Positions 60,969 to 63,914 of a DNA stretch of 64,000 bases are shown one piece after another. The notes under the pieces are model-generated. The model saw only the letters and a list, made by a program, of their open reading frames with translations. It had not been told where the DNA came from and did no database searches. The first letter of the stretch is position 1. Each line of letters begins with the position of its first letter. Location: positions 478,059-542,058 of the forward strand of contig NZ_FOYN01000001.1 of the NCBI RefSeq assembly GCF_900111935.1, in the 5' to 3' direction. The position numbers were made by a program, and so were the translations under genes. Source of the DNA: Halorubrum sodomense (lineage in GTDB: Archaea; Halobacteriota; Halobacteria; Halobacteriales; Haloferacaceae).

Positions 60969-61478
60969 ATGCTGATCGGCATCGTCTCCGACACGCACGA
61001 CGACTTGGCCGCCGTCGAGACGGCCGTCTCGCTGTTCGAGCGCGAGGGGGTCGACGCGGTCGTCCACTGCGGCGACTTCGTCGCGCCCTTCTCCGCGACG
61101 CCGTTCGACGCGGACTTCGACTTTCACGCGGTCCGCGGGAACAACGACGGCGAGTGGGCGGTCGAGTCGACCGTCGACTCGTTCGGGACCTACCACGGCG
61201 AGGCCGCCGCGCTCTCGTTCGACGGCGCAGATGTGGCAGTCACCCACGGGACGAGCGATCTCGTCGTCGACGCGCTCGTCGGCTGCGGCGACTACGACTA
61301 CGTGTTCCACGGCCACACCCACGCGCACGGCGTCGAGGCGCGCGGCGAGACGGTCCGGGTGAATCCGGGCGGGCTTCCGATTCCGGTCGAGGGTGCGGAC
61401 GACACGTTCCGGGTCGCGACGCTGGAGACGGCGGAGTCCGGAGCGGACGCGGTGACGCACCACGTCCTCGACGAATAA
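60969..61478 (+). CDS. MJ0936/YfcE-family metallophosphodiesterase
   Basis: A 169-aa calcineurin-like phosphoesterase with the full metal set: GIVSDTHDD, VHCGDFVA, VRGNNDGEW, VTHGT and FHGHTHAHG. It hydrolyses small phosphodiesters with a two-metal centre; archaeal members show broad activity in vitro and no settled role. It starts at ATG with TTCAAGTG upstream. The last gene before a long non-coding interval. Confidence 0.88.
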   Translation: MLIGIVSDTHDDLAAVETAVSLFEREGVDAVVHCGDFVAPFSATPFDADFDFHAVRGNNDGEWAVESTVDSFGTYHGEAAALSFDGADVAVTHGTSDLVVDALVGCGDYDYVFHGHTHAHGVEARGETVRVNPGGLPIPVEGADDTFRVATLETAESGADAVTHHVLDE

Positions 61479-61568
61479 GGGAAACACGTGGCGCAGAGCG
61501 CCTGTTTCTAAATCGAATCGGGATACGGTGACGAGTGTTTATAAACAGCTGTCGGCTCTGCGATGACT

Positions 61569-61645
61569 ACCGCCAAAGCCCCGGCCGCTCGCTCATAAAT
61601 GGTTACTGGCAGATCGGCGGCGAACACCGCCAAAGCCCCAGCCGC
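61569..61645 (+). repeat. Two copies of a 20-bp element behind TATA-like boxes
   Basis: ACCGCCAAAGCCCCGGCCGC at 61569-61588 recurs at 61626-61645 with one change (A for G). The first copy begins about 28 nt after the centre of TTTATAAA (61538-61545), the second about 29 nt after TCATAAAT (61593-61600): the geometry of two tandem transcription starts. Confidence 0.7.
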
Positions 61646-61671
61646 GAGGCGACCGTACGCTCGCTGTCGTT

Positions 61672-62077
61672 CGAGACGCCGAAGGCGTCTCGTGATGACG
61701 AGAGGGCTTCGCTCTCTCGAACCACGCTCCTCGCTCAGTCACTCCGTTCCTTCGCTGCGGTGCTTGCGTCGTCATCAGAACGCTTTGCGTTCTGATTGGC
61801 TCACGAGAGCTTCGCTCTCGTGAACGCCTACGGTCGCCTCGCGGCAGCGTGGCGCGTAGCGCCACGGGCAACCGGCGGCTTCGCCGCCGGTGACTGCCCC
61901 TTCGAGTCCCACCCCGAACCGCACGGCACCGCACCTCACGCCTCCCCAGCCTCGTCGCCGGACTACGTCCGGCTGTAAGCGAGAGCTTCGCTCTCGCCCT
62001 GTCAGCCGCCCTTCGCTTCGCTCCGGGCGGCTGACTCCCTCGCGCGGTGCTGTCTCGCGGCCGCCGAGGGCGGCCGC
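61672..62077. repeat. Array of ten perfect or near-perfect hairpins, mostly with 3-nt loops
   Basis: Stem spans (loop): 61672-61692 (GAA, 9 bp), 61699-61719 (TTC, 9 bp with one G-T pair), 61774-61796 (TTT, 10 bp), 61801-61823 (TTC, 10 bp), 61848-61866 (GTA, 8 bp), 61871-61891 (TTC, 9 bp), 61957-61973 (TAC, 7 bp), 61979-61997 (TTC, 8 bp), 62001-62035 (13-nt loop, 11 bp), 62057-62077 (GAG, 9 bp). Stem sequences differ, so these are independent dyads, not copies of one repeat. Function is not known. Confidence 0.9.
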
Positions 62078-62161
62078 TCGCAGGCACGCGCCGACCGCAC
62101 CGTTCTCTATAAGCGATCACACCGCCGCTAGCTGGCATTTGAACCGCGTTCCCACCCCGAG

Positions 62162-62168
62162 TTTTATC
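62162..62168 (+). promoter_or_regulatory. TATA box of the aldehyde:ferredoxin oxidoreductase gene
   Basis: TTTTATC lies 25-31 nt upstream of the ATG at 62193, immediately after the hairpin region. Confidence 0.6.
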
Positions 62169-62192
62169 GCCGCTCGCTCGCTCCGTACGCCC

Positions 62193-63914
62193 ATGAGACA
62201 CGCGCAGGGACCGCTCCTCACGATCGACCTGACCGAGCGGACCGCGTCGACGACGCCGATCGACGACCGGCTCGCGTCGTTCGTCGGCGGCCGCGGGCTC
62301 AACACGTCGCTCGCGTACGACCGGATCCCGTTCGACGCCGACCCGCTCGGCCCGGAGAACCGGCTCTTCCTTTCGACGGGGCCGATGCAGTACTCGACGA
62401 CCTCCTACACCGGTCGGATGGCCGCCACGGGTCTCTCGCCGCTCACGGACGGCCTGCTGTCGTCGAACGCGGGCGGGTTCCTCTCGCGGAACTTCACGGG
62501 CGCGGGGTACGCCGCCGTCGAGCTCGTCGGCGCGAGCGACGACCTGCTCGCGGTTCACGTTCGCGAGATCGGCCCGGACGGCGAGCCGAACGTGACGTTC
62601 GAGGCGGTCCCGGACCTGGAAGCGGCCGAGGTGTCGGCCGTCTCCGATCGGTTCGCGGAGACGCGCGACCTGGGGCCCGGACACGTGGCCTGTATCGGCC
62701 CCGCGGGCGAGAACGCGGTCCGGTTCGCGTCGATCATGACCTCGGACACGCGGGCGTTCGGCCGCGGCGGGCTGGGCGCGGTCCTCGGCTCGAAGGGCGT
62801 GAAGGCGCTCACGTTCGACGGCGACTCCGAGGCCGATATCGAGGTCGACTGGCCCGACGAGGCGGGCGAGGTCCACCGCGAGGCGGCCACCTCCGACTCG
62901 ATCATGAAGCGGCAGGGGACGACGAGCGTGACGGAGCTGGCGAACGAGGTGGACGCGCTCCCGTCGTACTACTTCGCGGAGACCTCCTTCGAGGGCGTCG
63001 AGGGTATCTCCGGCGACCGCGTCGAGGAGAAGAAGTACGAGAAGGGGACCTGCTCGCAGTGCGCGTTCGCCTGTAAGCTCCCCACGCGCGACGAGGCGAC
63101 GGGCGTCGAGACGGAGGGGCCGGAGTTCGAGACGGTGATGGCGTTCGGCTCCAACGCCGGCGTCGACGACGTGGTCGACGTGATGCGCGCCAACGAGCTG
63201 TGCGACGAGCTGGGGATGGACACCATCTCCTGTGGCGACGTCGTCTCGATGTTCTTGGAGAGCGAAGACGAGTTCGGCAACGCGGAGCTCGTCCGCTCGC
63301 TCGTCGAGCAGATCGCCTACCGCGAGGGCGTCGGCGACAAGCTCGCGGAGGGCGTCCACCGCGCCAGCGAGGAGTTCGGCGCCGAGGACTGGACGGTGAA
63401 GGGGATGGAGTTCGCCGGCCACGACGGCCGCGCGCTCAACGGGCAGGGGCTCGCGTTCGCGACCGCGAACCGCGGCGCCGACCACATGTACGGTGAGTTC
63501 TACCCCTACGAGTACCCGCTCGTCGACCCCGGCGACGCGCTCGACCCCGAGGGGCTCGACGGGAAGCCCCCGAAGCTCGTCGCGAAGGAGAACCGCAACG
63601 CGGTCCTCGACTCGGCGGTCGTCTGTAAGTTCTCGCGGGGCACCGTCACCGACGACCGGCTCGCGGCGCTGCTCGACGCCGACTACGACGCCCTCCAGTC
63701 GCTGGGCGCGCGAATCGTCGAGCTGGAGCGCGCGTTCAACAACGCCCGCGGCTTCGACCGGAGCGACGACACGCTCCCGTACGCCGACGCCATCGACGGG
63801 TTCGACGCCGCGCTCTCGGAGTACTACGCGGTCCGCGGCTGGAACGACGACGGCACCGTCCCCGACCACGGCGACGGCCTCGACGCGGGCAGTCGGGCGG
63901 CCGCCGACGACTGA
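62193..63914 (+). CDS. Aldehyde:ferredoxin oxidoreductase-family tungstopterin enzyme
   Basis: A 573-aa protein from ATG at 62193. The AOR N-terminal domain has LTIDLTERTASTTPIDDRLASFVGGRGLN and TGPMQYSTTSYTGRM (pterin binding). The [4Fe-4S] cluster ligands are C287, C290 and C294 (GTCSQCAFACK, C-x2-C-x3-C) and C478 (AVVCKF). Segments GPEFETVMAFGSNAGV and EFAGHDGRALNGQGLAFATANRGADHM fit the second and third domains. It oxidises aldehydes to acids with ferredoxin. At 573 aa it is shorter than Pyrococcus AOR (605), similar to haloarchaeal members. The stop codon lies in the first unit of a 25-bp tandem repeat. Confidence 0.92.
   Translation: MRHAQGPLLTIDLTERTASTTPIDDRLASFVGGRGLNTSLAYDRIPFDADPLGPENRLFLSTGPMQYSTTSYTGRMAATGLSPLTDGLLSSNAGGFLSRNFTGAGYAAVELVGASDDLLAVHVREIGPDGEPNVTFEAVPDLEAAEVSAVSDRFAETRDLGPGHVACIGPAGENAVRFASIMTSDTRAFGRGGLGAVLGSKGVKALTFDGDSEADIEVDWPDEAGEVHREAATSDSIMKRQGTTSVTELANEVDALPSYYFAETSFEGVEGISGDRVEEKKYEKGTCSQCAFACKLPTRDEATGVETEGPEFETVMAFGSNAGVDDVVDVMRANELCDELGMDTISCGDVVSMFLESEDEFGNAELVRSLVEQIAYREGVGDKLAEGVHRASEEFGAEDWTVKGMEFAGHDGRALNGQGLAFATANRGADHMYGEFYPYEYPLVDPGDALDPEGLDGKPPKLVAKENRNAVLDSAVVCKFSRGTVTDDRLAALLDADYDALQSLGARIVELERAFNNARGFDRSDDTLPYADAIDGFDAALSEYYAVRGWNDDGTVPDHGDGLDAGSRAAADD

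Follow-up and report, generated by a model that had tools for sequence, protein, structure and literature searches.

A dense array of short hairpins in Halorubrum sodomense, at positions 61672-62077 of the window (the whole 64,000-nucleotide stretch of DNA that was analysed), belongs to a single copy of an element dispersed through haloarchaeal genomes; the element combines a constant frame with exchangeable slots, and its stems are likely kept perfect by template switching during replication and by exchange between copies. It is close to certain that the copies belong to a single element family with covarying, exchangeable hairpins. The stems are likely maintained at the level of the DNA, and the element is apparently undescribed; no description of it was found in the open-access literature.

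The hairpin array and its parts

Eight perfect dyads with a three-nucleotide loop lie within 61672-62077. They start at 61672, 61774, 61801, 61848, 61871, 61957, 61979 and 62057, have stems of 9, 10, 10, 8, 9, 7, 8 and 9 bp and enclose the loops GAA, TTT, TTC, GTA, TTC, TAC, TTC and GAG, in that order. A ninth dyad (61699-61719, loop TTC) carries a single G.T mismatch within its stem and a tenth (62001-62035) has an 11-bp stem with a 13-nt loop. The array is intergenic, lying between the end of a calcineurin-like phosphoesterase gene at 61478 and the start of an aldehyde ferredoxin oxidoreductase (AFOR) gene at 62193. The first-pass annotation had described ten dyads in non-coding DNA, nine of them with three-nucleotide loops, and this description stands, with a list of loops that matches the sequence exactly. 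A shuffled control, which the same annotation had named as a possible refutation, places the array above chance by two orders of magnitude: eight stems of at least 7 bp with a three-nucleotide loop were observed against a mean of 0.07 (largest value 2) in 1000 dinucleotide-preserving shuffles of 61672-62077, and at the same stem threshold the interval holds no stem with any of the other loop lengths between 0 and 10.

The hairpins are not independent of one another, as had been supposed. Positions 61641-61660 pair with 61826-61845 (20 nt, 95% complementary) and 61693-61701 with 61769-61777 (9 nt), and these long-range pairings nest several of the hairpins inside a larger arm. Nor are all of the stems unrelated in sequence, since three have a GAGAG-type core in common. 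Folding of the window copy gives a z of -10.7 as single-stranded DNA and of -9.0 for its minus strand as RNA; the values for a simple copy, L035, are -3.3 as DNA and -4.1 as RNA. The parts of the window copy are as follows.

61538-61582, + strand: older 5' unit (TTTATAA ... CAAAGCCCC), placed by motif location; other copies have tandem 5' units of ~57 bp
61596-61639, + strand: 5' unit adjoining the arm (TAAATGG ... CAAAGCCCC), with a TATA-like start, placed by motif location
61631-61635, + strand: 5' side of the frame helix, CAAAG, whose partner is CTTCG at 61900-61904, with one A.C mismatch in the window copy
61641-61660, + strand: 5' side of the arm stem, 95% complementary to 61826-61845 and supported by covariation in 220 arms
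61672-61692, no strand: hairpin cassette 1, loop GAA, from the dyad search and other copies in the genome
61699-61719, no strand: hairpin cassette 2, loop TTC, one G.T mismatch, from the sequence
61774-61796, no strand: hairpin cassette 3, loop TTT, from the dyad search
61801-61823, no strand: hairpin cassette 4, loop TTC, from the dyad search
61826-61845, + strand: 3' side of the arm stem, from the long-range pairing
61848-61866, no strand: hairpin cassette 5, loop GTA, from the dyad search
61871-61891, no strand: hairpin cassette 6, loop TTC, from the dyad search
61896-61910, + strand: constant frame GCCCCTTCGAGTCCC, placed by motif location; the order-wide motif is GCCCCTTTSAGTCCC
61934-61954, + strand: constant spacer CCTCACGCCTCCCCAGCCTCG, found at 112 places in the genome, one of them in the window
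61957-61973, no strand: hairpin cassette 7, loop TAC, from the dyad search
61979-61997, no strand: hairpin cassette 8, loop TTC, from the dyad search
62001-62035, no strand: slot-2 hairpin with an 11-bp stem and a 13-nt loop, from the inverted-repeat search; slot 2 varies among copies
62057-62077, + strand: terminal hairpin, loop GAG, from the dyad search; the orientation of the loop is nearly fixed across copies
62107-62113, + strand: 3' TATA-like CTATAAG directly after the element, placed by motif location

Plan and distribution of the family

The element is a multi-domain structure of ~300-600 bp. Its constant frame consists of C/GAAAG-CCCC ... GCCC-CTTTG/C-AGTCCC, CTCCCCAGCC and the terminal hairpin, and its slots hold self-complementary stems that differ between copies. 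The 5' end is made of one or several ~57-bp units in tandem, with a TATA-like start, and is followed by the frame helix, by unpaired C tracts on either side and by the arm, which has a copy-specific stem and optional hairpin cassettes. Thereafter come a constant GCCCCTT, a C-rich spacer, slot 2, which is occupied by one of many hairpins, and the terminal hairpin. Of 133 copies, 71 are followed on the 3' side by a TATA-like box.

Several variants of this plan were seen. In one copy (L191) the 57-bp 5' unit is repeated in tandem several times with almost no change, a TATA-like box being present in every repeat, and exact 57-bp tandem steps are also present at G037:C1:1419211-1419383. Three copies (L035, L036 and L194) carry an optional module, CCGGAAGACGGTCCTG...CTTCCGT...GGGACCGC, between arm and spacer, whose pairings would cross in a pseudoknot-like manner. 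In genomes of other families (L339-L358) the arms are differently built, with nested stems and a recurring TATCC...GGATAGGGG internal loop within the same GAAAG-CCCC frame; Rfam gave no match for arms of this type in the nine of these 20 loci that were searched.

The impression recorded earlier, that such segments recur in Halorubrum-type genomes as a dispersed element, is borne out. With 61560-62110 as query, BLAST returns 114 pieces in the genome itself, the best paralogues being 85-89% identical across 346-412 bp. The 21-nt spacer occurs, with up to three mismatches, at 112 places in the 3.03-Mb genome (66 forward and 46 reverse), and the reversed spacer pattern used as a control occurs at none. 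All 52 genomes of the genus are matched when the simple copy L035 is the query; in the order as a whole this query finds 154 of 293 genomes, for the most part with weak matches. Many of the 18 weak matches inspected have the plan GAAAG-CCCC, arm, GCCCC-TTTCAG-TCCC, CTCCCCAGCC, hairpin, hairpin, and some have one half only. An exact scan of named genomes gave at least 118 stretches, and the 80 of them listed are nearly all from Halorubrum, with a few from Haloparvum, Halobellus, Halorussus and two halobacterial MAGs. The core motif GCCCCTTTSAGTCCC is present in 171 of the 293 order genomes and in 52 of 87 genera (the reversed control has two matches in total), although patchily, being absent from a number of genera that belong to the same family. 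Outside the order the motif is at chance level: 294 genomes were scanned, 241 of them from outside the order, and two of these 241 have one match each, compared with three having one each for the reversed control. The earlier view that the array is not one repeat amplified is therefore half right, in that the hairpins do belong to one amplified family, yet are exchanged as modules among its copies.

Covariation of the stems

Starting from 301 3'-anchors, 233 unique arms were obtained, of which 12 failed a filter on the first five pairs and one was too short, leaving 220 (alignment A1 comprises 70 arms). Among these 220 arms there are 140 distinct 5' stems. Arm positions 6-14 are nevertheless paired in 86.2% of cases, against 52.6% with permuted partners and at most 55.3% in 300 permutations. 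The decay of stems without compensation in homologues, which had been put forward as a refuting outcome, is thus the opposite of what is seen, because the pairing covaries.

The other stems behave similarly. Of 294 copies identified through the spacer pattern, 264 have a slot 2 that could be located, with 202 distinct sequences; its outer stem reaches at least 8 bp in 47%, compared with 2.9% for chimeric halves. The frame helix is paired in 209 of 217 copies by way of four pair types, CAAAG:CTTTG (141), CGAAG:CTTCG (30), GAAAG:CTTTC (37) and GGAAG:CTTCC (1), and the mismatched copies comprise four with G.T and four with A.C.

Mismatches, loop orientation and the origin of the stems

Covariation is usually read as proof of a functional RNA. 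Where an RNA is under selection, G.U intermediates are expected to exceed A.C on its strand. The arms do not have such an excess, the numbers of G.T and A.C mismatches being 13 and 15 in 78 copies, 23 and 43 in the 220 arms, and, once position 11 is excluded, 23 and 27 in 174 distinct stems. A control on tRNA stems from the genus and its neighbours, based on 19 tRNAs out of 21 detected in 118 loci, the other two being omitted, gave 10 G.T and no A.C in 228 pairs (Fisher p 9.7e-5 against the arms). The excess of A.C, 43 to 23, has a p of 0.019 against strict parity, and 15 of the 43 fall at one arm position, probably through shared descent. Nominally, selection on a minus-strand RNA would produce such an excess, and it counts against the best explanation. 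Mismatches counted in short hairpins of a wider set amount to 11 transitions, many of them inside flanking genes, and are uninformative.

Loop length and loop orientation offer a second view of the process. Across the 294 copies there are 327 hairpins with a stem of at least 7 bp and a loop of 3, whereas the remaining loop lengths between 0 and 10 account for 22-68 each. Among the cassettes, a loop and its reverse complement are similarly frequent (GAA 32 and TTC 52, GGA 24 and TCC 25, GTA 13 and TAC 14), some pairs being less even (GAC 15 and GTC 5, AGA 11 and TCT 2). Over all hairpins the usual loops of the terminal hairpin are one-sided (GGT 23 to ACC 1, GAG 21 to CTC 1). When the terminal stem was surveyed by regular expression, just 42 of 150 copies matched, and a bulged G seen there was left out of the counts. 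In one copy, L020, the whole interior of the arm is inverted.

In the relevant part of PMC8604942, homogenisation of the arms together with inversion of the spacer, three-nucleotide spacers included, is given as the signature of template switching, and the corresponding part of PMC8794818 describes template switching as both making and mending stems. Homogenised arms and inverted spacers are what the element displays. During replication the strand would fold back and one arm of a stem would be copied from the other, whereby a change on one side would appear on both and the three-nucleotide loop would sometimes be inverted. Whole hairpins would then pass from one locus to another through conversion between copies. 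No parent-to-daughter template-switch event was caught among the sequences compared. Of the two origins that the first-pass annotation had offered, a templated mutational process that makes foldback sequence gives the best fit, with near-perfect stems, both loop orientations and no wobble bias, and a structured RNA is unsupported, as there is no G.U bias.

A multicopy gene for a structured non-coding RNA, with a TATA box for each copy in the 5' unit and with stems that covary because the RNA needs to fold, is accordingly unlikely. Such a gene would account for the strong covariation, for the conserved unpaired motifs, for the stable RNA folds of L035 and of the minus strand of the window copy, and for a terminal loop whose orientation is nearly fixed. 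It would also account for the TATA-like hexamer, which 106 of 179 Halorubrum-type copies carry at 30-60 nt upstream of the arm, and for its constant position in 83 of 190 such copies, where the span from the first base of the hexamer to the last of CAAAGCCCC is 47-48 nt, but the hexamer is found in none of 38 copies of the other type. The lack of a G.U excess on the plus strand, set against the tRNA stems, and the presence of cassette loops in both orientations argue against it too, as does Rfam 15, which has no match in the window at gathering score and none that is credible at a relaxed cut-off. There are no tRNA genes in the window. An intrinsic terminator was also considered and rejected, as 61479-62192 contains a single terminator-like site, which lies at 61490 on the 5' side of the element, and shuffles give 0.6. 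At the other extreme the element might be a functionless hotspot at which template switching writes palindromes, and perfect stems, both loop orientations and the parity of G.T and A.C are what such foldback would leave behind. This is very improbable, and already disfavoured, because the constant frame is kept across the order, the frame helix covaries, the terminal loop is nearly fixed in its orientation and the cassettes are tied to copies of the element. Template switching alone leaves unexplained both the constant frame and the near-fixed orientation of the terminal loop; since the terminal stem is as palindromic as those of the cassettes, something must select on the terminal hairpin. 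The family thus provides hundreds of natural copies in which stems covary strongly with no G.U bias and with both loop orientations, so that template switching and selection on RNA become separable within a single family.

Exchange between copies and mobility

At the site of the window copy, an orthologous copy is present in eight sister genomes, and in eight further genomes the two genes are just 60-104 bp apart; others have different inserts, or loci that lack one flank. Cassettes 1-5, 7 and 8 are absent from all eight orthologous copies, cassette 6 is in one of them and the terminal hairpin is identical in one. Each of the eight cassettes is nonetheless found in 5 to 20 of 98 other loci of the same genome, and all 12 occurrences of cassette 1 in the genome, matched by eye, are inside copies of the element. 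Consequently, either the array arrived from other copies or it was lost from all eight sisters, and arrival is the simpler account.

A second site is filled in six genomes (580-892 bp between the flank matches) and empty in seven (98-146 bp). At both sites examined the filled and empty states are mixed on trees of the flanking genes, trees that are short in a group where recombination is common. Exact insertion boundaries could not be taken from the empty sites, as the flanks are too diverged for placement. Target-site duplication was rejected as a general feature, for words of at least 10 shared between the 5' and 3' sides were found in 18.8% of 133 copies against 14.1% of swapped controls. 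One copy, L045, is flanked by an 18-bp direct repeat, GGTTATTTATAAATAGCG, the only one of the 133 with a repeat so long, and might be a young insertion. The phosphoesterase/AFOR intergenic region contains other inserts or tandem repeats in L096, L098, L100 and L102, and so tolerates insertions generally; the insert of L096 encodes a MazE-type antitoxin and a PIN-domain protein at this same site, without the element, and in L086 and L092 a similar-looking insert, judged by eye, is accompanied by the element.

The main rival with regard to role is a slowly moving DNA element. A non-autonomous mobile DNA of the REP, PATE or MITE kind, on whose folded single strand a transposase would act with the hairpins as recognition structures, is a genuine possibility, though well short of an even chance. 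The element is too short to encode a transposase, has a palindrome near its end, is dispersed in both orientations and occupies orthologous sites in some species and not in others; as far as PMC3119063 describes PATEs, these also have no general target duplication. It is, however, hardly found on plasmids, with matches in 2 of 72,556 records (one of them Halorubrum), despite at least 14 Halorubrum plasmid records with an Orc1-like gene, and it has no match in phage records or, by the exact pattern, in viral contigs. The 85-89% identity of the best paralogues over long stretches gives no sign of a recent burst in this genome, and no runs of one strand were seen along a complete relative. No link to a transposase was seen either: the genes within the seven inverted close pairs of the genome were viewed as ORFs, and those run against Pfam are metabolic.

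Placement in the genome and cellular role

Copies favour the 3' ends of genes, since 25 of 104 lie between convergent and 5 between divergent genes (p 3e-4), with gene directions assigned by a base-composition heuristic that was undecided for 39 of the 104 upstream and 15 of the 104 downstream sides. Of 26 close pairs, at most 4 kb apart and counted without four same-element duplications, 19 have their 5' ends turned towards each other (p 4e-7, tested against one quarter), some of the pairs being orthologous. The facing arrangement is seen in seven of eight close pairs in the genome itself (101 places) and in six of seven in a complete relative (100 places). Five enclosed genes belong to the Pfam families of histidine biosynthesis, AIR carboxylase, Thi4, phosphoribosyltransferase and ferredoxin. 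Relocation of genes together with flanking copies was considered and rejected, as the surroundings of the ferredoxin and Thi4 genes remain syntenic. A bias of orientation with the lagging strand, by replichore, was likewise rejected (runs z 1.48 for 100 of the 104 places of the complete relative), and the spacing of copies along one complete relative is random (CV 0.97).

Because the copies favour gene 3' ends, and the close pairs bracket single genes with their 5' ends facing the gene, the best guess for the cellular role, a tentative one, is that of a gene-bracketing boundary. Against it stand the heuristic gene directions and the small number of close pairs, some of them orthologous. C4-C3-C3 tracts are present in 163 of 181 and in 28 of 38 copies, which were picked by anchors that include C4. 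The constant frame, in which unpaired C tracts lie opposite each other, may be recognised by a protein, although this is one of the weaker steps of the proposal; on the other strand, the G tracts are predicted to be capable of folding into a quadruplex that surrounds the arm, and the DNA in its folded state would serve as a boundary. It is possible, but doubtful, that the elements represent a new class of chromosomal element acting by the shape of its DNA. Here a constant recognition frame, perhaps a quadruplex with the arm as its loop, would be combined with stems in which pairing and not sequence matters, cassettes would be traded among ~100 loci per genome and re-perfected by template switching, and single genes would be bracketed by folded-DNA boundaries across the haloarchaea. 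If the elements do mark gene boundaries, they would constitute a widespread and overlooked layer of haloarchaeal chromosome organisation. Several haloarchaea can be genetically manipulated.

Comparison with known systems

The closest haloarchaeal parallel is provided by the palindrome-associated transposable elements (PATEs) of Haloquadratum, which according to the relevant part of PMC3119063 derive from IS605-type ends. As described there, PATEs are like the element multicopy and transposase-free, with no target duplication and with heterogeneous copies, and they have near-terminal palindromes; the element differs in its multi-domain arm, its exchangeable hairpin slots, its order-wide occurrence and the near absence of plasmid copies. 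The element shares with PATEs the lack of a general target-site duplication, and of the end palindromes it has the terminal hairpin at its 3' end; no palindrome was observed on the 5' side.

REPs are short single palindromes. The element is not, having 300-600 bp with a nested arm, a constant frame and variable slots. Its 112 places nevertheless represent a high copy number of extragenic palindromes, and REP/BIME sequences with their RAYT transposases, as far as they are portrayed in PMC2817692, similarly have more than 100 copies per genome and a proposed role in chromosome organisation.

The Rfam 15 families of structured RNA resemble the element in their covarying stems and conserved unpaired motifs, but none matches it and the element is without G.U bias. 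Double-hairpin elements of fungal mitochondria are divergent hairpin modules that spread in intergenic DNA. These and the hairpin elements of sponge mitochondria belong, unlike the present element, to organelle genomes, and neither is known to have an order-wide constant frame. The sponge elements, in the account given in PMC2800124, are likewise divergent hairpin modules spreading in intergenic DNA. Finally, the inverted repeats homogenised by template switching, in so far as PMC8604942 and PMC8794818 describe them, have the same homogenised arms and inverted short spacers, but are scattered single loci in genes or RNA genes, whereas the haloarchaeal element is dispersed and carries its hairpins in slots.
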